In this document: in pieces, positions 5,657 to 53,896 of the stretch
How the letters are laid out: every line of letters begins with the position of its first letter
How positions within the stretch are numbered: position 1 is the first letter of the stretch
Assembly: GCF_030848395.1 (NCBI RefSeq)
Contig: NZ_JAVDBT010000011.1
Coordinates: forward strand, 64,648-128,647
Direction of reading: 5' to 3'
DNA from: Pseudogemmobacter lacusdianii
Lineage (GTDB): Bacteria; Pseudomonadota; Alphaproteobacteria; Rhodobacterales; Rhodobacteraceae
Length of the DNA stretch: 64,000 nt
The notes under the pieces: model-generated
The model's database searches: none
The model's input: the letters and a program-made list of their open reading frames with translations, nothing else
Told to the model about the DNA's origin: nothing
Program-made: the position numbers and the translations under genes

Positions 5657-6808
5657 TCAGTAGGCGTGACCGCCGCCGGTGATGTCATCTTCATCCACCT
5701 TTCCCCACAGCAGCTTGTAGGCCCAGGCGGTATAGGCGACGATCAGCGGCAGGAAGATCACGGTGACGACAAGCATGATGAACAGCGTCATATGGCTGGA
5801 GGACGCATCCCAGACCGTCAGGCTTGCCCCGGGTTGCGCGGTCGAAGGCAGGATGAAGGGAAACATCGACAATCCGACCGAAGCGATAATCCCGAAGATC
5901 GAGAGCTTACTGAACAAGAGCGTTGCCACCTCGCGGCGTGCGCGCAGCCCCCACAGCACCAGCACCGCGCCAAGGAACCCAAGAACCGGGGCGGCGATCA
6001 TCCAGGGATGGGCGGCGTAATTGGCGAACCAGGCCCCGGCGCTGACATCAACCGTTTTCGCCAGCGGATTTGACGGGCCGGTGGTACTGATCGCGCTGGT
6101 GATGCGGTAGCCATCGACGAACAGCCACAGCGCGATGCCGCCAAGTGCATAAAGCGTGATCGTCGCCAGGGTGGCGATGGTGCCAAAGCGGCGGGCGCGC
6201 CCGGCCACCTCGCCCGAGGATTTCAGCACCAGCCAGTTCGCGCCATGCATGGTCAGCATCGCGACCGATAAGAGCCCGCAGAGCAATGCAAACGGGTTCA
6301 GCAGGCCGAAGAACGTGCCATCATAGAAAATCCTCAGGTCAGAGCCCAATCGGAACGGCACTCCTTGCAGCACATTGCCGACCGCTACGCCGAAGATCAG
6401 CGCGGGAACGAAACCTCCGATGAACAATGCCCGGTCCCAGTTCCTGCGCCATGTCGCGCTTTCTCGTTTCGAGCGGTATTTGAAGCCGACCGGCCGCAGG
6501 ATCAGCGCTGCAAGGATCGCGAACATCGCAAGGTAAAAGCCCGAGAAACTGACCGCGTAAAGCGGCGGCCAGGCAGCAAAGATTGCGCCGCCGCCAAGGA
6601 TCAGCCAGACTTGGTTGCCTTCCCAGACCGGGCCGATGGTGTTGATGACGATACGGCGTTCCAGATCTGTTTTTCCGGCAAATGGCAGCAGCATTCCGAC
6701 GCCAAGGTCGAATCCGTCCATTACGGCAAAACCGATCAGAAGCACGCCGAGCAGCAGCCACCAGATGACGCGCAATGTGTCATAATCAAGAAGGGTGTGC
6801 AGGATCAT
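5657..6808 (-). CDS. cydB: Cytochrome bd ubiquinol oxidase subunit II
   Basis: 383 residues, the usual CydB length, with eight or nine predicted membrane helices. The N terminus has the family signature 'WWLLLGVLLIGFAVMDGFDLGVGML' (split over residues 15-40) and 'GPVWEGNQVWLI' near 55-66. CydB forms the heterodimer with CydA in the inner membrane. It follows cydA by 5 bases with a GGAG ribosome-binding site and precedes cydX. Confidence 0.97.
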   Translation of the reverse strand: MILHTLLDYDTLRVIWWLLLGVLLIGFAVMDGFDLGVGMLLPFAGKTDLERRIVINTIGPVWEGNQVWLILGGGAIFAAWPPLYAVSFSGFYLAMFAILAALILRPVGFKYRSKRESATWRRNWDRALFIGGFVPALIFGVAVGNVLQGVPFRLGSDLRIFYDGTFFGLLNPFALLCGLLSVAMLTMHGANWLVLKSSGEVAGRARRFGTIATLATITLYALGGIALWLFVDGYRITSAISTTGPSNPLAKTVDVSAGAWFANYAAHPWMIAAPVLGFLGAVLVLWGLRARREVATLLFSKLSIFGIIASVGLSMFPFILPSTAQPGASLTVWDASSSHMTLFIMLVVTVIFLPLIVAYTAWAYKLLWGKVDEDDITGGGHAY

Positions 6809-6813
6809 CGGGG

Positions 6814-8406
6814 TTACTCCGCTGCAACAGGGTTACGGGGGGCCAGCGCTTTGGGCGCAAGCGGCATCTCCGGGTCATGGTCCGGCTGCGGTCCCTTGCG
6901 GATCGCGGCCAGCATCAGCCGCATCTCGATCACGATCAGCACCGTATAAAGCAGCGTAAACCCTGCGATGGTGATCAGAAGCGACGTCACCGTCATGTCC
7001 GAGACCGCGGCGACAGTCGGCAGGACGCCTTCGATAGCCCAGGGCTGGCGGCCGAATTCGGCGGTGATCCAGCCAAGTTCCGCCGCGATCCAGGGCAGGG
7101 CCAGTGATGCGACCGCGATTTTCAGCGGCCAGCGGCTGATGCCCAGCTTGCGGCGCGCGGCAAGCACCACGAAAAAGCCCATCAGCGCGACATTGAAAAA
7201 GCCTATGGCGACCATGATGCGGAAGGACCAGAACAGTGTCGGCACATGCGGCACGGTATCCCATGCGGCGGCCCTGATCTGCTCTTCGCTCGCCCGGCGC
7301 GGATCGTCGACGTATTTCATCAGCAAAAGCGCATAGCCAAGATCGTCGCCATGCCGCTCAAAGATCTCGATGGCCTCGGGCGGAACCGCCTCTCGCGTTG
7401 GTGCGGCGCGGTATTCCTGCAAGGCGTCATAGGCCAGCAGCCCGCTACGGATGCGGGTTTCGGCATGGGCTTCCAACTCGCTGATGCCGGGGATCACGGT
7501 TGTCAGCGAACGGGTGCCGATCAGGCCCATCACCCAAGGGATATGCACGGCGTAATGGGTAGTTCGGGCCTCCATGTCTGGGATGCCGATCAGGGTGAAA
7601 GAGGCGGGGGCGGGTTCGGTTTCCCACATCCCTTCGATGGCTGCGAGCTTCATCTTCTGGTGCTCTGTTGCCAGATAGCCGCCCTCATCCCCCAGGATCA
7701 CCGCTGAAATCGACGCCAGCAGTCCGAAGGAGGCCGCAATGGTCATCGAGCGTTTGGCGATGGCGATATGGCAGCCCTTCAGCAGATACCAGGCCGAGAC
7801 GCCAAGCACGAAGACCGAAGCCGTCAGATAGCCCGCCGAGACGGTATGGACGAAACGCGCCTGCGCCACCGGGTTGAACAGGACCTCGAAGAAATCGATC
7901 ACCTCCATCCGCATCGTATCGGGGTTGAATTGCGCCCCCACCGGGTGCTGCATCCAGCCATTGGCGATCAGGATCCACAAGGCCGAGAAGTTCGAACCAA
8001 TCGCCACGCAATAGGTGGCGAACAGATGCCCGACCTTTGACATCTTGTCCCAGCCGAAGAAGAACAGCCCGACGAATGTGGCTTCCAAGAAGAAGGCCAT
8101 CAGTCCCTCGATGGCCAGGGGGGCGCCGAAGATGTCGCCGACATAATGGCTGTAATAGCTCCAGTTCATGCCGAACTGGAATTCCATCACGATGCCGGTG
8201 GCGACGCCGAGGACAAAGTTGATGCCGAAGAGCGTACCCCAGAACTTGGTCATCTGGCGCCAGATCGGGCGGCCGGTCATGACATAGACCGTCTCCATCG
8301 CCGCGAGGAGGACGGAAAGGCCCAGCGTCAGGGGCACGAAAAGAAAGTGGTAAAGTGCGGTCAGGGCGAATTGAAGCCGCGACAGGGTGACGATGTCGAA
8401 TTCCAT
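6814..8406 (-). CDS. cydA: Cytochrome bd ubiquinol oxidase subunit I
   Basis: 530 residues. Heme ligands expected from the family are present: His20 ('ALYHFLFVPL'), His187 ('RFVHTVSAGY') and Met398 ('WSFRIMV'). The quinol-oxidation loop carries the conserved Lys251/Glu258 pair ('HQKMKLAAIEGMW'). The stretch of about 140 residues up to Met398 marks the long-Q-loop (L-type, E. coli-like) class. The enzyme oxidises quinol, reduces O2 to water, and tolerates sulfide, nitric oxide and cyanide. It lies 85 bases downstream of cydC, in operon order. Confidence 0.97.
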   Translation of the reverse strand: MEFDIVTLSRLQFALTALYHFLFVPLTLGLSVLLAAMETVYVMTGRPIWRQMTKFWGTLFGINFVLGVATGIVMEFQFGMNWSYYSHYVGDIFGAPLAIEGLMAFFLEATFVGLFFFGWDKMSKVGHLFATYCVAIGSNFSALWILIANGWMQHPVGAQFNPDTMRMEVIDFFEVLFNPVAQARFVHTVSAGYLTASVFVLGVSAWYLLKGCHIAIAKRSMTIAASFGLLASISAVILGDEGGYLATEHQKMKLAAIEGMWETEPAPASFTLIGIPDMEARTTHYAVHIPWVMGLIGTRSLTTVIPGISELEAHAETRIRSGLLAYDALQEYRAAPTREAVPPEAIEIFERHGDDLGYALLLMKYVDDPRRASEEQIRAAAWDTVPHVPTLFWSFRIMVAIGFFNVALMGFFVVLAARRKLGISRWPLKIAVASLALPWIAAELGWITAEFGRQPWAIEGVLPTVAAVSDMTVTSLLITIAGFTLLYTVLIVIEMRLMLAAIRKGPQPDHDPEMPLAPKALAPRNPVAAE

Positions 8407-42260: not shown

Positions 42261-42445
42261 GATCATTCCTTTTGGCTGGCAGGGAAGATCTGGCGCATGG
42301 CGGGATCGTGATATTGTTGCACAGGCTTGCCCCCTGGCCAAGGAAATCCGTTCCAGATCAATGCCCGAGATGGGCTGGGCCTTTGGCCGTTCGACCGTTT
42401 CCTTGCCGCCGGTCAGGAGAGGGAGAGTGGGGAGGGGTTTTCCAT

Positions 42446-42502
42446 GACGGGTTGGTAGCCGGAGAGAGGGTCTCCCCGGCGCCCGTCCTCGGAGTATCTG
42501 AC
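42446..42502 (+). promoter_or_regulatory. Structured 5' leader of the ParB-like gene
   Basis: Outer stem GACGGG (42446-42451) with CCCGTC (42482-42487). Inner stem GGAGA (42461-42465) with TCTCC (42471-42475), extended by GCC/GGC. GGAG of the ribosome-binding site starts 3 bases later. It matches the leader of DUF932 in form. Confidence 0.6.
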
Positions 42503-44662
42503 ATGGCCACTGCCGTTCAGAAGATCACCCTGTCGTCCTCGCGCGACATTCCCTTCAACAAGCTGGTGCTGAGCCAGTCCAACGTCCGGCGCGTCAAGGC
42601 CGGCGTTTCGGTCGATGAACTGGCCGAGTCCATCGCCCGTCGCGGACTGATCCAGTCGCTGCATGTCCGCCCGGTTATGGGCGAGGATGGTACCGAGACC
42701 GGCATGGTCGAGGTGCCCGCCGGCGGTCGCCGCTTCCGGGCGCTGGAGGTGCTGGTGAAGCAGAAGCGCCTCGCCCAAACCGCCCCGGTCCCCTGCATCG
42801 TGTCCGACGCAACCGACGACGTGCTGATCGACGAGGTGTCGCTGGCCGAGAATATCGAGCGCGCACCGCTGCATCCGGTCGACCAGTTCCGCGCCTTCCA
42901 GGCCATGCGCGAGAAGGGCATGACCGAGGAGGCCATTGCGGCCGCCTTCTTCGTTGATGCCAAAGTGGTGAAACAGCGCTTGCGGCTGGTCTCGGTCGCG
43001 CCCGCGCTGCTCGAGATCTATGCCGAGGACGGCATGACGCTGGAGCAGCTGATGGCCTTCACCATCTCTTCGGACCATGAGCGCCAGGTTCAGGTCTGGG
43101 AGGCGGTGAAGGACAGCTGGTCGAAGGAACCCTACAACATCCGCCGCCTGCTGACCGAGACCACGGTGCGGGCCTCCGACAAGCGCGTCACCTTTGTCGG
43201 CATCGAGGCCTATGAGGCGGCGGGCGGCTATGTGCTGCGCGACCTCTTCCAGCAGGACGATGGCGGCTGGCTGCAGGATCCGGTGCTGCTCGACCGGCTG
43301 GTGAACGAGAAGCTGAAGGCCGAGGCCGAGATCATCGCCGCCGAGGGCTGGAAATGGATCGAGCTCGCGGTCAGCTTCCCCTACAGCCACGCCTATGGCA
43401 TGCGGCAGTTGATCGGCACCACGGTCGATCTGACCGAGGACGAGCGCGCCACCCGCGAGGCGCTGCGAGACGAATACGACCGGCTTGAGGCCGAATATGC
43501 GCAAGCTGAGGAATACCCCGATGAGGTCGATGCCCGGATGGGCGAGATCGAGAAGACCCTCGGCGCCTTCGAGATGCGGCCGATGATCTACGATCCGGCG
43601 CAGATGGCGCGGGCCGGGGTCTTCGTCAGCCTCGATGTCGATGGCACGCTGCTGATCGAGCGCGGTTACGTCCGGGCCGAGGATGAAGCACCGCTGGAAC
43701 CGGAGCCCGAGATCGTCGATCCCGAGACCGGCGAGGTGCTGCAGCGCGGCGAGCCGGAAACCTACCACCAGCGTGCGGTGATCAGCCTCGGAGGAGAGCC
43801 GGCGACTTCGCCCGAGGAGGAAGAAGACGAAGGCGAGGCGATCAAGCCTCTCCCCGAACGGCTGGTGATCGAACTGACGGCCCATCGGACACTGGCCCTT
43901 CGCGATGCTGTGGCGAATAGCCCGCGCATCGCGATGACCGCGCTCTTGCACCGGCTGGTGCTCGACTGCTTCGGCATCCGCAGCTCGGGCAATGCGCTGC
44001 AGGCCCGTGTCAGCGAAGTGCATCTGTCGGTGCAGGCTCCTGACCTTGGCGACTCGATCCCGGCGCAGGCCATCGACGAACGGCATGCGGCCTGGCGGGC
44101 GGATATCCCGCTTGATGACGGCGATGACCGTCTCTGGGACTGGCTGCACGATCTTGACGAGGCAAGCCGTCAGGCTCTGCTGGCGCATTGCCTAAGCTTC
44201 GGGGTCAACGCGCTCTATGAGCGACCGAACCCCTATAGCGGCAATGGCATCAGCCAGCATGGCCTGGATCGGCGGCTGCATGAAGCGGATCGGCTCGCGC
44301 GCATGACGGGTCTCGATCTGGTCGAAACGGGCTGGAAGCCGACGGTCGCCAATTACCTCGGTCGCGTCACCAAGGTGCGTATCCTGGATGCCGTGCGTGA
44401 AGGTGTCGGCGATCAGGCGGTGGAACTGATCGGTCATCTGAAGAAAGGCGAGATGGCGACGGAGGCCGAACGGCTGCTGGCAGGCAGCGGCTGGTTGCCG
44501 GAGCCGCTGCGGATGGAGGACCACGAGGCCTTTGCAGACTCGGCAGATGCCGACGGTTCCGAAGCGAACGCCTTGCCGGACTTCCTCTCGGGCGACAGCG
44601 AGGACGAAGAGCCCTCCGAAGATGAAGAGCAGAATCCGGGGCATCGCATCGCCGCAGAATGA
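42503..44662 (+). CDS. Large ParB/RepB/Spo0J-domain protein (plasmid accessory type)
   Basis: 719 residues from the ATG of 'MATAVQKITLSSSRDIPFN'. ParB N-terminal domain at about 15-115 with 'VPAGGRRFRALEVL' and 'LAENIERAPLHPVDQF', then a helix-turn-helix ('MTEEAIAAAFFVDAKVVKQRL'). A long, acidic, otherwise unassigned C-terminal part follows (about 220-719). No ParA gene is adjacent, and the size is twice that of partition ParB. It belongs to the large ParB-like proteins on alphaproteobacterial plasmids and islands; partition is not its likely job. Confidence 0.88.
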   Translation: MATAVQKITLSSSRDIPFNKLVLSQSNVRRVKAGVSVDELAESIARRGLIQSLHVRPVMGEDGTETGMVEVPAGGRRFRALEVLVKQKRLAQTAPVPCIVSDATDDVLIDEVSLAENIERAPLHPVDQFRAFQAMREKGMTEEAIAAAFFVDAKVVKQRLRLVSVAPALLEIYAEDGMTLEQLMAFTISSDHERQVQVWEAVKDSWSKEPYNIRRLLTETTVRASDKRVTFVGIEAYEAAGGYVLRDLFQQDDGGWLQDPVLLDRLVNEKLKAEAEIIAAEGWKWIELAVSFPYSHAYGMRQLIGTTVDLTEDERATREALRDEYDRLEAEYAQAEEYPDEVDARMGEIEKTLGAFEMRPMIYDPAQMARAGVFVSLDVDGTLLIERGYVRAEDEAPLEPEPEIVDPETGEVLQRGEPETYHQRAVISLGGEPATSPEEEEDEGEAIKPLPERLVIELTAHRTLALRDAVANSPRIAMTALLHRLVLDCFGIRSSGNALQARVSEVHLSVQAPDLGDSIPAQAIDERHAAWRADIPLDDGDDRLWDWLHDLDEASRQALLAHCLSFGVNALYERPNPYSGNGISQHGLDRRLHEADRLARMTGLDLVETGWKPTVANYLGRVTKVRILDAVREGVGDQAVELIGHLKKGEMATEAERLLAGSGWLPEPLRMEDHEAFADSADADGSEANALPDFLSGDSEDEEPSEDEEQNPGHRIAAE

Positions 44663-44869: not shown

Positions 44870-45328
44870 TCAAAGCCTCGGTGGTGCCATCATGTCGCTT
44901 TGACGGGACCGGTGGTCCTCTATCGCCATGTTCAGAGAACGCGCGATCCGCTCGGCGCGCTCGATCACATGGGCGGCGCCGTCAGGCGGACAGATCTCCT
45001 GCGCGGTCAGGCGGAAGAGCTCCAGCCAGCGCTCGAAATGCGCCCATTCAACAGGCAGAGCGACATGGGCGGGCATCGGGGCGCCTTTGTAGATGCCAGT
45101 CATCAGCGCGACCGAATGCCAGAAGGCGACCATCTTTTCCAGATGCGGCCCCCAGTCGGTGATCCGTTCGGCAAAGACAGGACCCAGCATCGGATCCTGC
45201 TGCACGCGGTCGTAAAACCCGTGCACCAGGTCATGCAGCATCCGGCTGTCGAGGCCGGTCTCTGCCATCAGCGCGGCGGTCACCTCGGGGCGCATCGTCG
45301 GGGGAAGGGCGGGTGCGGTACTGGTCAT
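44870..45328 (-). CDS. Group III truncated haemoglobin
   Basis: 152 residues from 'MTSTAPALPPTM' with GGAGAG upstream. Globin features of the trHbP group: 'MLHDLVHGFYDRVQQDPMLGPVF', the proximal-His segment 'HLEKMVAFWHSVAL', and 'HVALPVEWAHFERWLELF'. It binds heme and probably O2 or NO. Encoded divergently from nsrR, with two palindromes between, so nitric-oxide control is likely. Confidence 0.92.
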   Translation of the reverse strand: MTSTAPALPPTMRPEVTAALMAETGLDSRMLHDLVHGFYDRVQQDPMLGPVFAERITDWGPHLEKMVAFWHSVALMTGIYKGAPMPAHVALPVEWAHFERWLELFRLTAQEICPPDGAAHVIERAERIARSLNMAIEDHRSRQSDMMAPPRL

Positions 45329-45371
45329 CTGGCTCTCCGGCTGCGGCGCGCTGTCACGCCGCCTTGCAGGA

Positions 45372-45384
45372 CAGGATAATCCTG
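45372..45384. promoter_or_regulatory. Palindrome in the trHb-nsrR intergenic region
   Basis: CAGGAT-A-ATCCTG, a perfect 6+1+6 palindrome, 44 bases upstream of the haemoglobin start. Candidate operator, although it does not match the NsrR consensus. Confidence 0.4.
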
Positions 45385-45386
45385 CT

Positions 45387-45409
45387 AATTGGTATTTCAA
45401 ATACTGATT
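45387..45409. promoter_or_regulatory. Candidate NsrR operator
   Basis: An 11+1+11 inverted repeat (AATTGGTATTT-C-AAATACTGATT, 9 of 11 pairs match) just upstream of the nsrR start. The A/T-rich arms meeting at TTT-N-AAA resemble the NsrR box. It would allow autoregulation and control of the divergent haemoglobin gene. Confidence 0.6.
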
Positions 45410-45419
45410 GATTGCGACC

Positions 45420-45842
45420 ATGCGCCTCACCGCCTTCACTGACTACGGCCTGCGCGCCCTGATGCGGATCGCCTCGGATCCGTCGCGTGGCTTTTCCACC
45501 GCCGAACTGGCGGATGAGTTTGGCCTGTCGCGGCATCATCTGGCCAAGATCGTGCAGCGGCTGGCGCAGGGCGGCATCCTGAGCACGCGCCGGGGCGGTG
45601 GTGGCGGGGCGATGCTGGCGGTCCCGGCCGGGACGCTGCGCCTCGGGGCAGTGGTGCGTTTGCTGGAAGAGAGTGGCTCGGGGCTGGTCGATTGCCTGAC
45701 GCCGGGCGCGTTGGCCTGCACCGTCGACGGGCGCTGCGGCCTGAAATCGCGCCTGCGCCGGGCCGAGGCCGCCTTCATGGCAGAGCTTGACCGCTCGACG
45801 CTGGCTGATATCGCCCTGCACCCTTTGGAGGTGGAGCAATGA
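45420..45842 (+). CDS. nsrR: NsrR, Rrf2-family nitric-oxide-sensing repressor
   Basis: 140 residues from 'MRLTAFTDYGLRALMRIA'. N-terminal winged helix ('TAELADEFGLSRHHLAKIVQRL') and the three cluster cysteines Cys92, Cys100 and Cys106, as in NsrR iron-sulfur proteins. NO destroys the cluster and relieves repression. It is divergent from the truncated haemoglobin and coupled to the DUF1971 gene by an ATGA overlap. Confidence 0.9.
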   Translation: MRLTAFTDYGLRALMRIASDPSRGFSTAELADEFGLSRHHLAKIVQRLAQGGILSTRRGGGGGAMLAVPAGTLRLGAVVRLLEESGSGLVDCLTPGALACTVDGRCGLKSRLRRAEAAFMAELDRSTLADIALHPLEVEQ

Positions 45843-46138
45843 CCGACTGGCCCACGGGGCTGCAGCCCTACAAGCGCACGCCCGAGTTCACCGAGACCAG
45901 CATTCCGCTGGGGCTTCTGCGCGCCCATGCCACCAAGGCGGGCACCTGGGCGCAGCTGCACGTGCTGGAGGGCAGGCTTCGCTTCCGCGAACTGGTGCGG
46001 GACCGGGTGTTCGACCTTGGCCCTGGCATCCATCCCGTGATCCGACCCGAGGAACAGCACGAGGTTGCCCCATTGGGCCCCGTTCGATTCTTCGTCGAGT
46101 TTTGCCGGATGGAGGACGAGGCCGGAAAAACTCTGTAG
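45839..46138 (+). CDS. DUF1971-type small protein
   Basis: 99 residues beginning 'MTDWPTGLQPYKRTPEFTE' with 'IRPEEQHEVAPLGPVRFFVEF' near the end: a small cupin-like fold typical of DUF1971/TehB-N proteins, often found next to nsrR. Its start overlaps nsrR. Function unknown; the context suggests NO or nitrite stress. Confidence 0.88.
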   Translation: MTDWPTGLQPYKRTPEFTETSIPLGLLRAHATKAGTWAQLHVLEGRLRFRELVRDRVFDLGPGIHPVIRPEEQHEVAPLGPVRFFVEFCRMEDEAGKTL

Positions 46139-46255: not shown

Positions 46256-46271
46256 TACTCCATGTGGGTTA
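46256..46271. promoter_or_regulatory. Imperfect palindromic box, copy 1
   Basis: TACTCC-ATGT-GGGTTA, part of a 21-base stretch that matches the stretch around 48563-48578 at 17 of 21 positions. Located 80 bases before the gene at 46352. Confidence 0.4.
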
Positions 46272-46351
46272 TTCATGGCGTCGCTGCGATGGATATACTG
46301 ACCTGAACTGCAACACCCGTGCACCCGGCCCGGTTCAGCCCTCGTACCCGC

Positions 46352-46666
46352 ATGATCTATCTCGCCTACCCTGCTGCCACCGCCTGGTCTCTCGGTTGTG
46401 CCTGGTTTCTGGTTCGGCTGATCAAGGATACGATCCGCACGGAGACGCGTTTCAACATCGCCGTCATATTCCTGACCGTCGTTCCGGTCCTGGTGGTGTT
46501 GGGCTACGCGCCATGGATCCTGATCGAGAGCTTCAACTCGCCGGTCATCGCCACGTTGCGCGAGAACGAATGGCACTGCACGCAAACCGGGACCATGCAG
46601 ACGATGGTCAGATCCTATACGCGGTTTGTCGAGATCTGCACGACCTATCAGCGTATCGGGCATTGA
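46352..46666 (+). CDS. Small membrane protein of unknown function
   Basis: 104 residues from 'MIYLAYPAATAWSLG' (a GTG start 33 bases earlier is possible). Two membrane helices (about 3-22 and 36-58), then a soluble tail with two cysteines ('HCTQTG', 'EICTTY'). No family recognised. Followed by an intrinsic terminator. Confidence 0.6.
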   Translation: MIYLAYPAATAWSLGCAWFLVRLIKDTIRTETRFNIAVIFLTVVPVLVVLGYAPWILIESFNSPVIATLRENEWHCTQTGTMQTMVRSYTRFVEICTTYQRIGH

Positions 46667-46694
46667 TACCGGGGCCCCTCGGCTGAGCACTATA

Positions 46695-46717
46695 CTCCGC
46701 GATGCGGAGCAGTTTTT
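46695..46717 (+). terminator. Intrinsic terminator
   Basis: CTCCGC-GAT-GCGGAG stem-loop followed by CAGTTTTT, 29 bases after the small membrane-protein gene. Confidence 0.7.
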
Positions 46718-46820
46718 CGAGGTTGCGGCTGTGCTTGACCATATTCCCTTGTCTTTTGCTTGACCGCCACGCGACATAAGGGCGAGGATCGCGGCTGTTT
46801 GTTTGAAAGCATTGCAGCAG

Positions 46821-48551
46821 ATGAATGACACCGCCTCCCCTGAGCATCAGTTGATAGGGCACCTCTACGATGTTGCGGTGGATCCGGGGCATTATGAGGC
46901 GATGATCGACCATTGGGAGACCATGCTGCGCCCGGCGCTTGAGGGGCAGATGGCGGGTGCGACCGATCCTCATGATCTGGTCGGGCGCCATGTGCTGCGC
47001 GCTGATCGCGTGCTCGAGCAGGTGCTGATGACCCCGCAGGACGATGGGGCCGCGGCTCAGGTCGAGCGGATCCGCCAGACGGCCTGTTTCACGGTAGATG
47101 GCCGGGGTCATATGGCGGCGGTGAACAACGCGACCACGCTGATGTTCGGCCTGACCGCCGGTGCAAGGGCGCGCGATCTGCCGCTTGCGAGGGGCGAGGC
47201 GGACAAGCTGATCACGCTGGCTGCCAGTCTTTTGCAGTCCAACGCACCCATCTCGCGGGTGCTGTGCTTACGTCTGCGCGACACGGGCCGCCTGCTTGTC
47301 CTGCAATTGCGGCTTTGCCGTCCGCCGACCGAAGCCGCCTTTGTGCTGTGCGTCACCTCGGAAATCCATTGGCCTGACGGCTTTGCCCAACTGATGGAGG
47401 ACAGCTTCGGCCTCTCGCCCAGCGAGATCGAGGTGCTGCGCTTCCTCGCCGAAGGGCTCTCGGTGGCCGATATCGCAGCGCAGCGCCGGCGCAGCCTGGA
47501 AACGGTCCGGGTGCAGCTCAAATCCCTGCAAAGCCGCACCGGCACGCGCAGCCAGCAGGAGCTTATCCGGCTGGCTTTGACGACTTTGAACAGTCTGCGG
47601 GATCAGGCCCTGCCGGCGTCCGAGCGCCGGACAGGGCCTGCCGAGGTCGAGACCCGCCGCTTCGCGCTCAAGGGCGGCCGACAGATGGAGTATCTGGTCT
47701 TTGGCAACCCCGAGGGCCGTCCGGTCCTGTTTCTGCCGCTCGATATGGGGTTCGTGCGCTGGCCACCCAAGGCCGAGGCCGATGCGCTGCGCCGGGGGCT
47801 GCGCATCATCGTTCCGATCCGCGCCGGCTATGGTGGCTCCAGCCCCGCTCCGGCACGGAGCGAGTTTTTCCGGCAGTTCATCAGCGATCATCTCGATCTG
47901 CTGGATCACCTGCGCATTCCCCGCCTGCCGATCCTGACGCTTGGCGATGACAGCCTGCTGGCAATCCGGCTTTACGCGGCAGCGCCGCAGCGTTTCTCGG
48001 CGCTGCTGGCCTGTGCCGGCGCCCTGCCACTGACCAGCAGCGAACAGATCCAGCGCATGGGCAAGTGGCATCGCTTCATCCTTGGCGGCGCGCGGCTGAC
48101 GCCGCATCTGCTGCCGTTCATGGTGCGCGCGGGTGCTGCGATGGCGCGTCGCTATGGCAAGACCCGCTTTCTGGCTTCGGTCTTTTCCTCCTCGCCCGCC
48201 GATGCCGCGACCTTCGCGATCCCCGATGTGGCAGAGGCGATGATCGTCGGATCCGAGGTTATGCTCTCAGCGGATCATTGTGCGGCGGGGCCTTTCGCAC
48301 AAAGCGTGGCGGCGCTGGCGCAAGCCGACTGGACAGGGCCGATGGCGCAACTTCGCTCAGGTGTCGAAAACGGACGGATGAAGGTTCTGTTCTTCAGCGG
48401 CGAGCAGGATCCGCAGACCCCGCAGGAAACCATGGTCGAGCAGCGGGATGAACATCCCTGGATCGAGTTCACGGTCTATCCCGATGCGGGGCAGCTTCTG
48501 TTCTTTCTGAAGTGGCGCGACGTTATCGCGCGCCTCGATGAACTTGCATGA
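46821..48551 (+). CDS. LuxR-type HTH regulator fused to an alpha/beta-hydrolase
   Basis: 576 residues from the ATG at 46821 (a TTG 18 bases earlier is an alternative). Residues 1-190 form an unassigned sensor-like region. About 195-260 is a LuxR HTH ('GLSPSEIEVLRFLAEGLSVADIA', 'SLETVRVQLKSLQSRTG'). From about 285 to the end is an alpha/beta-hydrolase-like domain. The nucleophile elbow is 'LGDDSLLAI', where Asp or Ser replaces the usual G-x-S-x-G, so it may be non-catalytic and bind a ligand. The domain lies C-terminal to the DNA-binding domain, an uncommon order. Confidence 0.88.
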   Translation: MNDTASPEHQLIGHLYDVAVDPGHYEAMIDHWETMLRPALEGQMAGATDPHDLVGRHVLRADRVLEQVLMTPQDDGAAAQVERIRQTACFTVDGRGHMAAVNNATTLMFGLTAGARARDLPLARGEADKLITLAASLLQSNAPISRVLCLRLRDTGRLLVLQLRLCRPPTEAAFVLCVTSEIHWPDGFAQLMEDSFGLSPSEIEVLRFLAEGLSVADIAAQRRRSLETVRVQLKSLQSRTGTRSQQELIRLALTTLNSLRDQALPASERRTGPAEVETRRFALKGGRQMEYLVFGNPEGRPVLFLPLDMGFVRWPPKAEADALRRGLRIIVPIRAGYGGSSPAPARSEFFRQFISDHLDLLDHLRIPRLPILTLGDDSLLAIRLYAAAPQRFSALLACAGALPLTSSEQIQRMGKWHRFILGGARLTPHLLPFMVRAGAAMARRYGKTRFLASVFSSSPADAATFAIPDVAEAMIVGSEVMLSADHCAAGPFAQSVAALAQADWTGPMAQLRSGVENGRMKVLFFSGEQDPQTPQETMVEQRDEHPWIEFTVYPDAGQLLFFLKWRDVIARLDELA

Positions 48552-48562
48552 GAGATGTCGAT

Positions 48563-48578
48563 TAACCCATCCGGGTTA
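48563..48578. promoter_or_regulatory. Perfect palindromic box, copy 2
   Basis: TAACCC-ATCC-GGGTTA, 12 bases after the LuxR-hydrolase stop and about 94 bases before the first gene of the exported-protein operon. A related copy stands at 46256-46271. Candidate operator of the LuxR-hydrolase protein. Confidence 0.45.
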
Positions 48579-48671
48579 TTCACGAACAGGCAGAATCGGG
48601 GAAAGTGTCGCCTGCCTGACCCTATCATGGGATCCGGGCGGATTGCTCTGACACTTTCGAAGGAAGACCCC

Positions 48672-48986
48672 ATGACCCGTAAACTCCTGGCCTCGGCCGC
48701 TCTTGCCGGTGCCCTGTTCGGCGCGGCCCCCGCCATGGCCGAAGAGCTTTCGCTGCATACCTTCCTGCTGGTCTGGGTCTCGGACAATTGCGAGGGGTTT
48801 GAATATGCCGAGGACATGCTGCGCCATGCGAATATCGCGGTGATGGGCGCCCCCGAGGCCGAGGTCGCCGCCTTTACCGAGAAGATGGAGCACGGCCTGA
48901 ACGACCTCTTCGAGGGCGACAAGGCGGGCTATTGCGAGAGCATGATCTGGAATATCGAGGATCTAGAGGCCGAAGCGGCGGAGTGA
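48672..48986 (+). CDS. Small secreted protein
   Basis: 104 residues with signal 'MTRKLLASAALAGALFGAAPAMA' (split at the AMA site). The mature part has two cysteines ('DNCEGFEYAED', 'AGYCESMIWN') that may form a disulfide. Unknown family. First gene of a five- or six-gene operon of exported proteins. Confidence 0.75.
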   Translation: MTRKLLASAALAGALFGAAPAMAEELSLHTFLLVWVSDNCEGFEYAEDMLRHANIAVMGAPEAEVAAFTEKMEHGLNDLFEGDKAGYCESMIWNIEDLEAEAAE

Positions 48987-48993
48987 CCCGATC

Positions 48994-49488
48994 GTGGATG
49001 CGAGTCTGACGCGGCGGATGCTGCTAGCAGGGGCAGGGGCGGGTGCGGTTTTGGCGGCGCCTGTTCTTGCGGAAGGCGCGGCCTGGCTGGACGCTGTTGC
49101 GCAGCGGCTGGCATCGCAGGGCGGGTCTGATCCGGGCCAGCTTGCTCTTGATTTGGCGGGCAATATCCGGGTGGAGCTCTACTGGAGCACGGATGTCCCG
49201 GGCTTTCTCGCCGATATTGCGGCGGTGAAGGCGCGCGCCCCTCTTGCCGAGGCTGGCTATGATCCGGCCACGGGCATCAGCCGGATCGATCAGCAGCTCG
49301 CAGATGGGCGGTCAAGCCTGACCGACCACTGGATGGACCACGGCTGGACCCTGCGCCGGATCACGATAACGGCGGGCGACCCGGCGACCGCCGCCAGCGG
49401 GCTGGATGAATTTGCAGGCTTCCGCAATCGCGGGGGCTTTGGCGGCCCGGCGCTGCTGACGCCGCCCTTTTCCCCTTTGCAGGATTGA
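48994..49488 (+). CDS. Tat-exported hypothetical protein
   Basis: 164 residues from a GTG 7 bases after the previous stop. Twin-arginine signal 'LTRRMLLAGAGAGAVLAAP'. The mature protein has no cysteine and no domain I recognise ('NIRVELYWSTDVPGFLADI', 'SLTDHWMDHGWTLRRITI'). Operon context suggests a periplasmic partner of its neighbours. Confidence 0.72.
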   Translation: MDASLTRRMLLAGAGAGAVLAAPVLAEGAAWLDAVAQRLASQGGSDPGQLALDLAGNIRVELYWSTDVPGFLADIAAVKARAPLAEAGYDPATGISRIDQQLADGRSSLTDHWMDHGWTLRRITITAGDPATAASGLDEFAGFRNRGGFGGPALLTPPFSPLQD

Positions 49489-49492
49489 CAGG

Positions 49493-49906
49493 ATGAAGAT
49501 TCCATCTGCTCTGGCTGCCCTTGGGCTTGCCGTTTTCGCTCTCCCGGCCTTTGCGCAGGGGGCGTCTTGTGATGACGAAACCGATACTGCGGCAACAGTC
49601 GCCTGCCTCGACACATACTGGCAGCGTGAAACCGCCCGCACGGATCTGCTGATGGAGCGTCTGTCGGCGCTGATCGCCCCGCAAGACGAGAGTTACGTCG
49701 AAGATGCCCCGAATGGCGCTGCGCGCCTTGCCGCCTCGGCAATCGCCTGGGAGGCGTCACGCGATGCCGATTGCGCGCTGGCGGGATATGCCATGGCCGG
49801 CGGATCCTGGGAGGCGGTGATCACCGCTGCATGCCTTGGCACGCAACAGGCATCCCGCAATGGCTGGCTTGAGGGGCGTATCGCACAGTTCGAGATGGCC
49901 GAGTGA
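49493..49906 (+). CDS. Secreted LprI/DUF1311-like protein
   Basis: 137 residues with signal ending 'AFAQGASC'. A four-cysteine pattern ('SCDDETDT', 'VACLDTYWQRE', 'DADCALAG', 'AACLGTQQASRN') resembles the lysozyme-inhibitor LprI/DUF1311 fold, whose members protect peptidoglycan. The family call is moderate; inhibitor function is inference. Confidence 0.7.
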   Translation: MKIPSALAALGLAVFALPAFAQGASCDDETDTAATVACLDTYWQRETARTDLLMERLSALIAPQDESYVEDAPNGAARLAASAIAWEASRDADCALAGYAMAGGSWEAVITAACLGTQQASRNGWLEGRIAQFEMAE

Positions 49907-50208
49907 TGGGCCGTGTTTCTGCTCTGCTGGCTGCGCTTTTGCTCGGGGCCTGTGTTCAGCCGTCGCCCCCGAATGATTGTGCGCAGCGTCTGGCTGTCGC
50001 CCGCGATCTGGCGGCCCTGCACCAATATGGCGGCGACATGGAGGCCCATATCCGCAGCCTCGGCACCAAAGGGGCCAGCGCCGCCGAACTGGCCGATTAC
50101 CGGGACATGGCCGTCCGGCTGCGCCCGGTCCCGCGCCTCGCCGGTGACGGTGGGCGTGAGATGGGCATCGAGGCCGGTCTGGCCGAATTGAACCTGACCT
50201 GTCCCTGA
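49906..50208 (+). CDS. Small lipoprotein
   Basis: 100 residues from the ATG overlapping the previous stop (TGATG). Lipoprotein signal with lipobox 'LLGAC' at about 14-18. The mature part has two more cysteines. Unknown family; probably in the outer membrane. Confidence 0.72.
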   Translation: MGRVSALLAALLLGACVQPSPPNDCAQRLAVARDLAALHQYGGDMEAHIRSLGTKGASAAELADYRDMAVRLRPVPRLAGDGGREMGIEAGLAELNLTCP

Positions 50209-50233
50209 AGCGATGAAACCCATGGAGAAGACA

Positions 50234-51370
50234 ATGACATTCCCGATCCGGCGCCTGATGGGCGCAGCCCTCTCGCTTGCGCTGCTGGCGGTGCCGATGA
50301 CGGGTTTTGCCGATCAGGCGGTGATCGACCGGCTGAACCAGTTGGAGATCAAATGGAAAAACGGCCCGGTCGATGCGGCCGGCTTTGCCGATCTGCAATC
50401 CATCTCGATCCCGCATACGATGCGCGAAAGCCTGACCGATGCCGACCTTGTGCTGCTGGCCAAGCTGCCCCGGCTGGGCCATCTGGCGCTGGATGGCGTC
50501 AAGGGCCTGACCCCCGAGGGCCTGCGCGCTTTGGAGGCTGTACCGAACCTGTGGTTCGTCTCCTGGAAGATCGCCGATCTGACCGACGCCCATGTGCAGG
50601 CGCTTGGTGGTATCCAGACCCTGAAGATGCTGGAACTGAGCGGAAACAAGGCCCTGACCGATGCCATCATGCCGACGGTAGCGGCGCTGCCGGTGCTGGA
50701 GGGGCTGCAACTTGACGGCACCTCTGTCACCGATGCCGGTGTGGCCAAATTGGCGGGCCATCCGACGCTGCAACGCCTGTCGCTGATCTCGCTGGGCGTG
50801 ACGGATGCGATCTTTGCGCCGCTGTCCTCTGCGCCGAAGCTAAAATCCCTGATCCTGAACCGCAGTGCCGTCACCGGCAAGGGGGCGGCGCAACTCGCGG
50901 CGCTGCCTGGGTTCGACGAGATCGGGCTGCATCACGCTGCGCTGACCGATGAAGGGGTGCTGGAACTGGCGCAGATCCCCACTCTGCGCAACGCCTTCCT
51001 GTGGGAAAACCGTATCTCGGATGCCGGGCTGGCGGCGCTTGCGGCGCTGCCGGGGCTGCGCACGCTCTATCTTAACGGCACGGATGTAACCGATGCGGGC
51101 ATGGCGGATCTGGGGCGCTCGACTTCGATCGAGACGCTGTGGCTGTCGAAAACGGCGGTTGGTGACGAGGGCGTTGCGGCGCTTTCAAACCTGCCGCTCA
51201 GCTCGATCATGCTCGAAGAGACCAGGTTGGGCGATGACGGGCTGGCCAGCCTTGCGGCTATCCCGACCCTGCGCAACATCACCAGCCGCAAGTCCAATGT
51301 GACCGAGGCCGGTGTCGAACGCGCCATGGCGGTCGAGGGACGCAACGATAAGCTCTCGATCCGGAATTGA
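50234..51370 (+). CDS. Exported leucine-rich-repeat protein
   Basis: 378 residues from the ATG with GGAG upstream; starts at 50213 or 50222 are possible. Signal peptide ends 'TGFADQ'. Then about eleven repeats of ~24 residues of the cysteine-free 'LxxLxLxGTxVTDAGLAxLAxLPxL' type, as in periplasmic LRR proteins. Protein-protein binding is the expected function. Such repeats are rare in small operons of this kind. Confidence 0.88.
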   Translation: MTFPIRRLMGAALSLALLAVPMTGFADQAVIDRLNQLEIKWKNGPVDAAGFADLQSISIPHTMRESLTDADLVLLAKLPRLGHLALDGVKGLTPEGLRALEAVPNLWFVSWKIADLTDAHVQALGGIQTLKMLELSGNKALTDAIMPTVAALPVLEGLQLDGTSVTDAGVAKLAGHPTLQRLSLISLGVTDAIFAPLSSAPKLKSLILNRSAVTGKGAAQLAALPGFDEIGLHHAALTDEGVLELAQIPTLRNAFLWENRISDAGLAALAALPGLRTLYLNGTDVTDAGMADLGRSTSIETLWLSKTAVGDEGVAALSNLPLSSIMLEETRLGDDGLASLAAIPTLRNITSRKSNVTEAGVERAMAVEGRNDKLSIRN

Positions 51371-51410
51371 GGATGCGGGTCCGGCCAGGCTCGGGAAAGG
51401 AGGCCCCCCG

Positions 51411-52268
51411 ATGACAGCGAATGAGGACGCCCCCTGGCTGGCAGATCTGGCCTGTGCGTTGTCGCGGGCCAGATGGATCATCGTGGCACCTGCTGTGGTC
51501 GGTGTGGCCCTGTTCCTCGCCCTCGGCGGTTGGCAGGGCGAACCCGGACTGGCCGCCTTTCTGGCGCTGGCCCTTGGGCTGAACGGCGCGGCGATGGCGG
51601 CATGGATGCTGCGCCTTGGCCTCGACAGCGCCTTCCTGCCGGCGCTGGCACGGGCGCGCGGGCTGGAGCATCAACCCGTCGCCTCGACCTGGCGCCTGCT
51701 GCCCGAAGGGGTCCTTCCCGAAGGCAATACCCGGATGATGCGCAATCTGGTCACGGGGCGCATCGCGGATCGCAGCTGGCAGGCGGGCTTTCTGGAGATC
51801 GGCCGCAAGCAGCGCAACAAGGGCAATACGATCAGCATCTTTCGCGGCCAGCTGGTGCAGGTCGAGGCGGCCCCTGGCGCGCCGGATGTTATTCTACTGC
51901 CCGCCAACCGCAGACCTGCGGCGATGTCGGGCGGCATTGGCACCCTGAACTGGCCGCAGCGAGCCGAGTTCACTTGGCAGAGCCGGCGCTGGCAGGTGTT
52001 TTCGCCGCAGGATGTTGGACCGGAGGATCTGCAACACTTGCAGGTGATGATGGCCGCCCTGCCGCCCTTGCCGCGCGCTGTCGTGCTCCGCGCTGTTGTC
52101 CGGGCGAATGGCTGGCAGCACTTGGTTTTTGCCAACCGGAATGATCTGTTCAGGATGGGCAGCCTGCCAACGCTTTGGCAGCCGGCAGAGCAGGTGGCGG
52201 AGCGGGTGTTTGGCAACCTCACCTGGGCGGAACTGGTTGCACGGGCAATGGTGACGCAAAGCGACTGA
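51411..52268 (+). CDS. Membrane protein with cytoplasmic or periplasmic domain, unknown family
   Basis: 285 residues from the ATG with AAAGGAGG upstream. Two membrane helices near the N terminus (about 20-40 and 45-65), then a ~220-residue soluble domain ('FLEIGRKQRNKGNTISIFRG', 'PQRAEFTWQSRRWQVFSP'). Probably the last gene of the exported-protein operon; it may hold the complex at the inner membrane. Confidence 0.7.
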   Translation: MTANEDAPWLADLACALSRARWIIVAPAVVGVALFLALGGWQGEPGLAAFLALALGLNGAAMAAWMLRLGLDSAFLPALARARGLEHQPVASTWRLLPEGVLPEGNTRMMRNLVTGRIADRSWQAGFLEIGRKQRNKGNTISIFRGQLVQVEAAPGAPDVILLPANRRPAAMSGGIGTLNWPQRAEFTWQSRRWQVFSPQDVGPEDLQHLQVMMAALPPLPRAVVLRAVVRANGWQHLVFANRNDLFRMGSLPTLWQPAEQVAERVFGNLTWAELVARAMVTQSD

Positions 52269-52447: not shown

Positions 52448-53896
52448 ATGCTTTCTCTCGCTGACTACCGGAGCCAATGGTTTGGCAATATCCGCCCCGA
52501 TCTCCTGTCCGGCCTTGTGGTGGCGCTGGCGCTGATCCCCGAGGCCATTGCCTTTTCCATCATTGCGGGCGTCGATCCCAAGGTCGGGCTTTACGCCAGT
52601 TTTTCCATCGCGCTCATCACCGCGATTGCCGGTGGGCGGCCCGGGATGATCTCGGCCGCGACCGCCTCCAAGGCGGTGCTGATGGTGACCCTGGTCAAGG
52701 AGAACGGTCTGCAATATCTGCTGGCCGCGACAATTCTGGCGGGGCTGTTGCAGATCGGCATGGGGTTGCTGAAACTGGGCTTCGTCATGCGCTATGTGTC
52801 GAAATCGGTGATGACCGGCTTCGTCAACGCCCTCGCGATCCTGATCTTTCTAGCGCAACTGCCGAAACTGGACCCGGGTCGCGTGCCGATGCTGACCTAT
52901 CCGTTGGGCGCGCTTGGGCTGGCGATCATCTATCTGTTTCTGCGCCTGACCACCTCCATTCCGTCGCCTCTGATCACGATCATCGTGCTGACGGCGCTGG
53001 TGCTGGCGCTGGATCTTGATGTGCGCAATGTCGGCGATATGGGCGCGCTGCCCGATACATTGCCGGTCTTCCTGTTGCCCAATGTGCCGCTGACCTATCA
53101 GACGCTGGCGATCATCTTTCCCTATGCGCTGGCGGTTGCTGTCGTGGGCCTGCTGGAAAGCCTGATGACCGCCAATCTGATCGACGAGGTCACCAATACG
53201 AAATCCGACCGCAATCAGGAATGCATCGGTCAGGGGCTGGCGAATTTCGGCACCGGCTTCATCGGCGGCATGGCTGGCTGCGCGATGATCGGGCAGAGCA
53301 TTATCAACGTGAAATCCGGCGGGCGCGGACGGCTCTCGTGCGGCTTTGCCGGGGTGATGCTGCTGATCTTCTGCGTTTCGCTTGGCGATTGGGTCAGCCT
53401 GATCCCGATGCCGGCGCTGGTGGCGATCATGGTCATGGTGTCTATCGGCACGTTTTCCTGGGCGTCGCTCGGCAATCTGCGCACCCATCTCCGGTCAAGA
53501 TCGGTGGTGATGCTGACCACGGTGGCGGCGGTGATCTGGACGCACAACCTCGCCATTGGCATGGGGGTGGGCGTGCTACTCTCGGGCCTGTTCTTCGCGG
53601 CGAAGATCGCGCAGCTGTTCCGGGTGACCTCCAGCGAAGACGCGGGCACCCGCACCTACCGCGTCGAGGGCCAGCTGTTCTACGGCTCGGTCGAGGATTT
53701 CAGCGCGGCGTTCGACTATCGCAACCCGCCTGCGCGGGTGGTGGTCGACGTTTCGGATGCGCATATCTGGGACATCTCCTCGGTGCAGGCGCTGAACGCT
53801 GCCTCGGCCACGATTGTTGACCGGCTAGGCACAATGGACAGGGAAAGGGCGGGCGATATGCTGCGCACCGCAGTGAAGGAGAACCAGCATGTCTGA
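52448..53896 (+). CDS. SulP-family permease (second copy) with STAS domain
   Basis: 482 residues. Membrane domain with '[29 protein letters not shown]' (split over 23-51) and '[27 protein letters not shown]'; a short C-terminal STAS-like domain ('[19 protein letters not shown]'). Only distantly like the SulP at 12229, so not a recent duplicate. Substrate unknown (sulfate, bicarbonate or dicarboxylate). The end overlaps the next gene by 8 bases. Confidence 0.92.

Follow-up and report, generated by a model that had tools for sequence, protein, structure and literature searches.

A LuxR-type regulator with a hydrolase-like domain and a conserved palindromic box behind its gene in Pseudogemmobacter lacusdianii and its relatives

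Introduction

In the RsbQ/RsbP-PAS module, described for Bacillus subtilis and other bacteria, an alpha/beta hydrolase and a PAS domain form the sensing part, which is joined to an output (PMC3183031). RsbQ is a separate protein there, and its Ser-Asp-His triad is required for signalling; the outputs given in the abstract are a phosphatase, a kinase, and a diguanylate cyclase, and its main text mentions neither LuxR nor a helix-turn-helix (HTH) (PMC3183031). In this study, we analyzed a stretch of 64,000 nucleotides from Pseudogemmobacter lacusdianii (contig NZ_JAVDBT010000011.1, positions 64,648 to 128,647), called the window in the following, which encodes a regulator next to an operon of exported proteins. 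This regulator would resemble RsbQ-PAS in combining a hydrolase fold and a possible PAS partner with an output, but it carries the hydrolase, the PAS-like part, and a LuxR-type HTH in one chain and has lost the triad. We consider it probable that it activates transcription as a one-component regulator, acting on a target promoter of its own with a swappable cargo; the main evidence is a palindromic box that is conserved behind the regulator gene in most of its relatives.

LuxR-type activators usually have their site near -42, and LuxR-type proteins with a box at that place are mostly activators. The regulator shares the GerE HTH and a palindrome near -42 with LuxR solos and GerE-type one-component regulators, but differs from LuxR solos in that no autoinducer-binding domain is among the eight families listed for it at E ≤ 1 and that its HTH is central, with the hydrolase fold behind it. 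In BzdR-type regulators, both the enzyme fold and the HTH type are different from those found here. Their likeness to the present regulator lies in the reuse of an enzyme fold as effector domain (PMC3602430). The first-pass annotation of this DNA had stated that no known system with this content comes to mind. For the sensing part, this has to be revised, as the RsbQ module offers a precedent of hydrolase and PAS (PMC3183031). Keyword searches of the open-access literature, with partial coverage, returned no description of the family, the box, or the RNA reported below. Altogether, the system is a variant of one-component regulation and not a new principle.

Regulator protein and its hydrolase domain

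The regulator gene is located at 46821-48551 on the + strand, with ATG 46821 as the likelier start and TTG 46803 as an alternative. According to an AlphaFold2 (AF2) model, the protein consists of N-terminal helices, a PAS-like part, a central LuxR-type HTH, and a C-terminal alpha/beta-hydrolase fold. The GerE HTH was detected with 32.9 bits (cut-off 23.5), placing the protein among the LuxR/GerE-type regulators, while its sister from Devosia remained slightly below that cut-off with 23.1 bits. Abhydrolase_1 gave a sub-threshold match (22.0 bits versus a cut-off of 25.8); by its fold, the C-terminal domain belongs to the alpha/beta hydrolase superfamily, the comparison with solved structures (VIA-align list) covering the hydrolase domain only. 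With GerE above the cut-off and the hydrolase fold in one open reading frame (ORF), the LuxR-HTH/alpha-beta-hydrolase fusion proposed in the first-pass annotation was confirmed. The PAS-like secondary structure of the AF2 model lies between the N-terminal helices and the HTH. PAS_4 was detected in 8 of 25 family members at E ≤ 0.01, and comparison of this part with PDB profiles revealed sensor-protein chains as best matches, though weak ones with E values of 0.12 and worse.

Profile alignments to solved hydrolases assigned the nucleophile position to Gly374 in the motif TLGDDS. The triad is not intact in the window protein, which carries Gly374, Asp529, and Gln557 at the nucleophile, acid, and His positions, respectively. 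Among 121 aligned regulator proteins (103 distinct), the His position was occupied by Gln in 114 and by His in none, whereas the acid position was Asp in 117. The nucleophile position was mostly Gly (93 proteins), less often Ser (15), Ala (7), or Leu (2), with single cases of Met, Thr, Asp, and Glu; two residues further on, 119 of the 121 have Asp. That Asp, D376 in the window protein, was considered as an alternative nucleophile and ruled out, since the alignment to solved hydrolases places the nucleophile two residues earlier. The altered nucleophile elbow (LGDDSLLAI), noticed earlier in the window alone, was therefore rightly recognized, and the alteration is a trait of the family. The natural reading of these sequences is that the domain would be a non-hydrolysing sensor, the candidate ligand-sensing part of the protein.

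Of 345 sampled genomes from the family to which the window belongs, 50, its own genome counted, have a relative of the regulator at E ≤ 1e-40. An alignment-based scan of GTDB genomes found 207 relatives, 80 of which were retained as named loci, according to record titles mostly from Rhodobacterales together with a few Hyphomicrobiales; a scan of genome contigs with a single regulator sequence found none. The genome of P. lacusdianii itself harbors a second copy (G000:C1:238745-240400, locus L081), which is 36% identical to the window regulator and adjoins a parE-like gene; this and the other neighborhood names (recN, parE, argG, etc.) were assigned by eye from translations. The second copy possesses its own, different box, CTACCGCAAATGAGGTATGCGG, which was not recovered when the whole genome was searched with the window-type pattern, 3 mismatches being allowed.

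Palindromic box and promoter geometry

The window contains two palindromic boxes on the + strand, box A at 46256-46271 (TACTCCATGTGGGTTA followed by TTCA) and box B at 48563-48578 (TAACCCATCCGGGTTA followed by TTCA), the latter behind the regulator gene. Over 21 bases (ATTAACCCATCCGGGTTATTC and ATTACTCCATGTGGGTTATTC, respectively), the two agree at 17, so that both the palindrome just downstream of the regulator and the related box at 46256 were found as first annotated. They are the only matches to TAACCC-N4-GGGTTA with up to 2 mismatches in the window. With a third mismatch allowed, 10 matches were found and 7.8 expected; since this count is ordinary, the window alone does not prove the boxes, and the proof comes from the loci of relatives and from the genome-wide scan.

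Close behind the regulator gene, 109 of the 120 relatives' loci revealed a palindrome near TACCCCA-NN-TGGGGTA (in general form TAnCCCA-NN-TGGGnTA) with a score of at least 11 of 14. Of 369 control gene ends, taken from the first 40 loci, from which the scoring consensus was also derived, 3 reached that score. In 23 other fetched loci, mostly of other GerE proteins, no site scored 11 anywhere. The search covered -60 to +320 relative to the stop codon for the first 40 loci and the 369 controls, and -60 to +400 for the other 80. As the sets L061-L100 and L109-L188 overlap (e.g., L061/L110), the 109 boxes correspond to 88 nonredundant stretches. Absence of the boxes from homologous loci, named in the first-pass annotation as a refutation and looked for here, is thus not what the relatives display. 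The loci without a box in the scanned stretch were L089, L099, L109, L165, L167, L168, L169, L170, L173, L184, and L187. L109, from Devosia, carries its box elsewhere, namely before the gene e1 described below; L165 and L167 to L170 belong to Shimia and some Roseovarius, in which the regulator is present.

Alignment of the 88 nonredundant loci on the box revealed a second block, TAannT, at positions 39-44, i.e., 22 bp past the box end. In 44 of the 88 loci, a TAnnnT motif starts at 39 or 40, while no other single position between 18 and 75 has it in more than 4 loci. With the box centre at 8.5, the -10 block at 39-44, and a likely start at about 51, c. 7 nt later, the box is centred near -42, and the arrangement, in which a -10 element follows such a box, is that of a class II activator promoter, the start being predicted from spacing. 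In the window, box A is followed at the same distance of 22 bp by the -10-like hexamer TATACT (46294-46299, + strand), while behind box B the -10 position, placed by spacing, reads GAAAGT (48601-48606, + strand). The window's -35 positions, ATTCAC and ATTCAT, are poor, which fits dependence on an activator. An AT-rich block ahead of the box coincides with the regulator stop codon and is not claimed as an UP element.

Pattern TAMYCCANNNGGGTTATTCA, defined on boxes A and B, was searched in the whole genome of 3.78 Mb. It resulted in three perfect matches, where about 0.0005 were expected from base composition: 46256, 48563, and C3:3174, which belongs to the same contig and precedes the window by about 61 kb; only this last one is an independent find. 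The third box is followed by CTAGAG at the spacing of the -10 block, and the ORF behind it (L202:3250-4035) encodes an exported outer-membrane beta-barrel protein with an OMP_b-brl domain (51.3 bits, cut-off 28.7). When 3 mismatches were allowed, 11 matches were obtained versus 5 for the reversed control pattern; the 8 non-perfect ones all have 3 mismatches, one of them being the 48563 box read on the reverse strand. The two further ones that were inspected, C12:111701 and C23:136162, were rejected as sites, both being inside script-predicted ORFs.

Pattern TACCSCANNTGGGGTATG was also applied to 20 genomes, with up to 2 mismatches allowed. The site behind the regulator was recovered in 19 of them, 13 with no more than 1 mismatch, and genome G296 had none; a further site with up to 1 mismatch elsewhere was present in 4 (G044, G061, G082, and G092). 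In total, this pattern gave 62 matches, with palindromes counted on both strands, versus 36 for the reversed control. In G061, three box-like sites with 2 mismatches each are spaced about 155 bp apart (G061:C1:2944412-2944740), possibly representing a repeated element.

Exported operon and the Devosia faecipullorum locus

All genes behind the two window boxes are encoded on the + strand. Box A precedes a small membrane ORF of 104 amino acids (aa) at 46352-46666, with GTG 46319 as other possible start and one hydrophobic transmembrane (TM)-like stretch. It is followed, before the regulator gene, by a terminator-like hairpin at 46695-46717 (CTCCGCGATGCGGAG and CAGTTTTT) with weak statistics (5 in the region versus 3.9 expected). 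Behind box B, e1 (48672-48986) encodes a small exported acidic protein of 104 aa with two Cys and a hydrophobic N-terminus, and e2 (48994-49488) an exported protein of 164 aa with RR before its hydrophobic stretch, judged by eye as possibly a substrate of twin-arginine translocation (Tat). They are followed by e3 (49493-49906), encoding an exported LprI-like protein of 137 aa (PF07007, 33.4 bits, cut-off 22), and e4 (49906-50208), which overlaps the e3 stop codon and encodes a small lipoprotein-like product of 100 aa (LLGAC, by eye). The next gene (50213-51370) encodes an exported leucine-rich-repeat (LRR) protein (LRR_6, 47.9 bits, cut-off 23.4), starting at ATG 50213, though a signal peptide would suit ATG 50234, and the last one (51411-52268) a membrane protein of 285 aa with two TM-like stretches. 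The exported operon, the LRR protein, and the membrane protein were as first annotated; the five small exported proteins of that annotation are four, five only if the LRR protein is counted.

These genes turned out to be rare. In the family, e1 was found in 1 of 345 genomes, namely that of the window, and the 285-aa membrane protein in 2 of 295, the other one being G130, with 27% identity and without other operon genes. The LRR protein was present at E ≤ 1e-10 in 3 of 295 family genomes, two of which match part of it only, at E ≤ 1e-30 in 3 of 385 genomes of the class, two of them without the operon, and in 1 of 75 Devosia genus genomes, that of D. faecipullorum. The two LRR relatives of the class genomes (34-38%) were dismissed as operon carriers, as the fetched stretches, one of only 9,979 bases, gave no match to e1, e2, the membrane protein, or the regulator at E ≤ 0.1. 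Plasmid records contained no relative of the membrane (1e-5), LRR (1e-20), 104-aa (0.01), or beta-barrel (1e-8) proteins, and the 104-aa ORF had no match in viral contigs either. The operon as the usual partner of the regulator was rejected, being present in 0 of the first 40 and 1 of the other 80 loci.

This one locus, of D. faecipullorum (L109/L190), is the sole one of 120 with e1, e2, the LRR gene, and the membrane gene in the same order. The Devosia LRR protein is 56% identical over 356 aa, e1 38%, and e2 34% with the motif GGFGG..LLTPP kept, whereas the 285-aa protein has a weak homolog (26% over 76 aa); e3 and e4 revealed no match in the Devosia stretch. The last operon gene ends some 100 nt ahead of the Devosia regulator, and the latter shares 51% identity with that of the window. 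A box precedes e1, at the same spacing to CTAGCT. Pattern TAMCCCANNNGGGTTATTC, widened to fit that box, matched perfectly only there in the Devosia genome and gave two further matches with 2 mismatches, the same number as the control. In the regulator tree, the window and Devosia proteins are sisters (SH-aLRT 99, quick method) inside a supported set of 12, whose members with a long stretch seen mostly adjoin a recN-like gene. By these comparisons, operon and regulator probably moved together. The first-pass annotation had named the operon occurring mostly without the regulator as a refutation; in the only other operon genome found, both stand side by side with a box before e1, two genomes in all.

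Two genes behind the Devosia regulator, L190:13328-13648 encodes an exported protein of the Rap1a family (43.3 bits, cut-off 27.7), adjoining another exported ORF without Pfam match.

Genes and RNA behind the box in other relatives

A membrane protein of about 100 aa is encoded behind the box in 10 loci (L078, L079, L097, L140, L142, L153, L158, L172, L176, and L186), at least two pairs of which are from the same genome. The two that were scanned, from L079 and L142, both matched NCBIfam CBU_0592 (NF047864). This family was not found behind boxes A and B of the window, where other proteins are encoded. A terminator-like hairpin follows the box in 95 of the 109 loci, as called by our own script without shuffle control. 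Its end is 56-296 nt past the presumed start, with 23 loci at no more than 105 nt, 55 in the range of 106-200 nt, and 17 above that; a terminator there would also serve the regulator gene.

In the clade with a recN-like neighbor, the 3' part of the transcript is a covarying hairpin (23 sequences, 21 pairs, 19 of them changed on both sides). Of the hairpin cells, 86.7% were paired versus 70.0% in shuffles and 36.5-45.2% when slid, where the pair counts use the structure predicted from the same alignment. A covariance model of this part, run on 97 sources, gave 25 matches, every one of them behind the regulator and on the + strand, comprising 13 of the model's own sequences, 6 from the same genomes, and 6 others; the window gave no match. 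In the 20 of 120 loci scanned against Rfam (L031-L050), no family exceeded its gathering score behind the box, and the six matches of that scan (tRNA, tmRNA, and chrB-a) all lie upstream of the regulator, judging from their coordinates, which were checked for L047.

The RNA core GGCAATG..TATT is found 117-146 nt from the presumed start, and in that same range L140 and L158 have the CGNGxxYS codons of their membrane gene. Both loci are from Aliiroseovarius, where these long open copies align with decayed copies that retain the box (L134, L137, L148, L154, and plasmid NZ_CP081154.1). The core as a conserved short protein was unsupported, since tblastn with two CBU_0592-type queries gave no good match there; reading it in frame, a start codon precedes the core in 20 of 30 loci and is lacking in 10 (L140 and L158 excluded). 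With moderate confidence, we take the RNA to descend from a CBU_0592-type membrane gene, because the distance from the start is the same, GGCAATG..TATT is common to the core and the CGNGxxYS codons, no membrane protein is left, and the stem pairs covary.

Window surroundings

The contig starts with a MobA/VirD2-type relaxase gene and also carries ParB-like genes, so that it looks like a plasmid. Two ParB-like ORFs are located at 42272-44662 of the window and at L202:1371-1814, the latter apparently truncated (by eye). Beside the regulator locus, 44870-46138 comprises a globin-like ORF (- strand, by eye), an Rrf2 regulator, and a DUF1971 gene, and cytochrome bd genes are found at 5657-8406 (- strand); together, they may form an oxygen and nitric oxide (NO) response neighborhood. 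On the other side, a sul1 RNA (RF03058, 52332-52389, + strand, 79.3 bits, cut-off 36.2) lies directly upstream of a SulP-like transporter gene (52448-53896), followed by a sulfolactate/ureidoglycolate-dehydrogenase-like gene, both below NCBIfam cut-offs. This RNA accounts for a stretch of about 70 bp that is conserved in plasmid records, namely the 20 listed out of 114 with a match.

Discussion

In the mechanism we favor, the PAS-like part and the C-terminal hydrolase fold would bind a small molecule without turnover, and ligand binding would control the central LuxR-type HTH. A dimer of this HTH would bind TAnCCCA-NN-TGGGnTA, as the linkage of box and regulator gene suggests, and with the box centred at about -42 the regulator would contact RNA polymerase as a LuxR-type class II activator. 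It would thereby turn on three envelope transcripts, i.e., the 104-aa membrane ORF, the operon from e1 to e4 with the LRR and membrane genes, and the OMP_b-brl gene, the cargo presumably having a role in the periplasm or outer membrane. Several observations weigh against this reading. The window regulator itself has no match to any PAS model at E ≤ 0.01, and the nucleophile position is still Ser in 15 and Asp in 1 of the 121 relatives. The box is missing from the scanned stretch in 11 of 120 loci, the weaker genomic sites, 11 versus 5 matches, are indistinguishable from chance, and the operon is linked to the regulator in two genomes only. Furthermore, the -10 hexamer of the operon promoter, GAAAGT, is weak, and the right arm of the box continues, in many relatives, into ATGAC(A/G), similar to a -35 element (TTGACA) and 17 bp from the -10 block.

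This last feature is also what a repressor would call for, i.e., a protein that occupies the promoter, with the right arm of the box overlapping the -35 region, and is released by its ligand. However, the -35 positions are far from consensus in the window (ATTCAC) and in relatives with a parE neighbor (ATGCG), and activators prevail among LuxR-type HTH proteins whose box is near -42; we regard repression as rather unlikely. From promoter sequence, activation is more likely than repression, though not proven. Alternatively, the box might mainly serve local feedback or control of the regulator's 3' end, the exported operon being a passenger that landed behind it. In most scanned genomes, the box behind the regulator is indeed the only site with up to 1 mismatch, the genes behind it vary or are convergent, and the operon occurs in 1 of 120 relatives' loci; yet in Devosia, where the operon flanks the regulator on the opposite side, e1 is likewise preceded by a box, the third box 61 kb upstream of the window precedes the gene of an exported protein, and the -10 block orients the promoter away from the regulator, leaving this explanation improbable. 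That boxes have arisen by chance in an ordinary neighborhood would agree with the window-only count at up to 3 mismatches, but is contradicted by 109 of 120 loci versus 3 of 369 gene ends and by three perfect genomic sites versus about 0.0005 expected, and we give it next to no weight.

Tentatively, and with more doubt than activation itself, the promoter may be seen as a fixed dock at which cargo has been exchanged: an ancestral CBU_0592-type gene, a structured RNA from the decayed gene in one clade, and the exported operon in the window and Devosia. If true, one could follow here, as is rarely possible in bacteria, how a protein gene became a structured RNA while its regulator stayed the same. 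With these data, the regulator family gains both a target site and a sensing domain that can be tested, and it may provide a case of a regulator that keeps its promoter while the regulated gene is replaced. The series of intact gene, decayed gene, and covarying RNA opens the origin of small RNAs from genes to direct tests.

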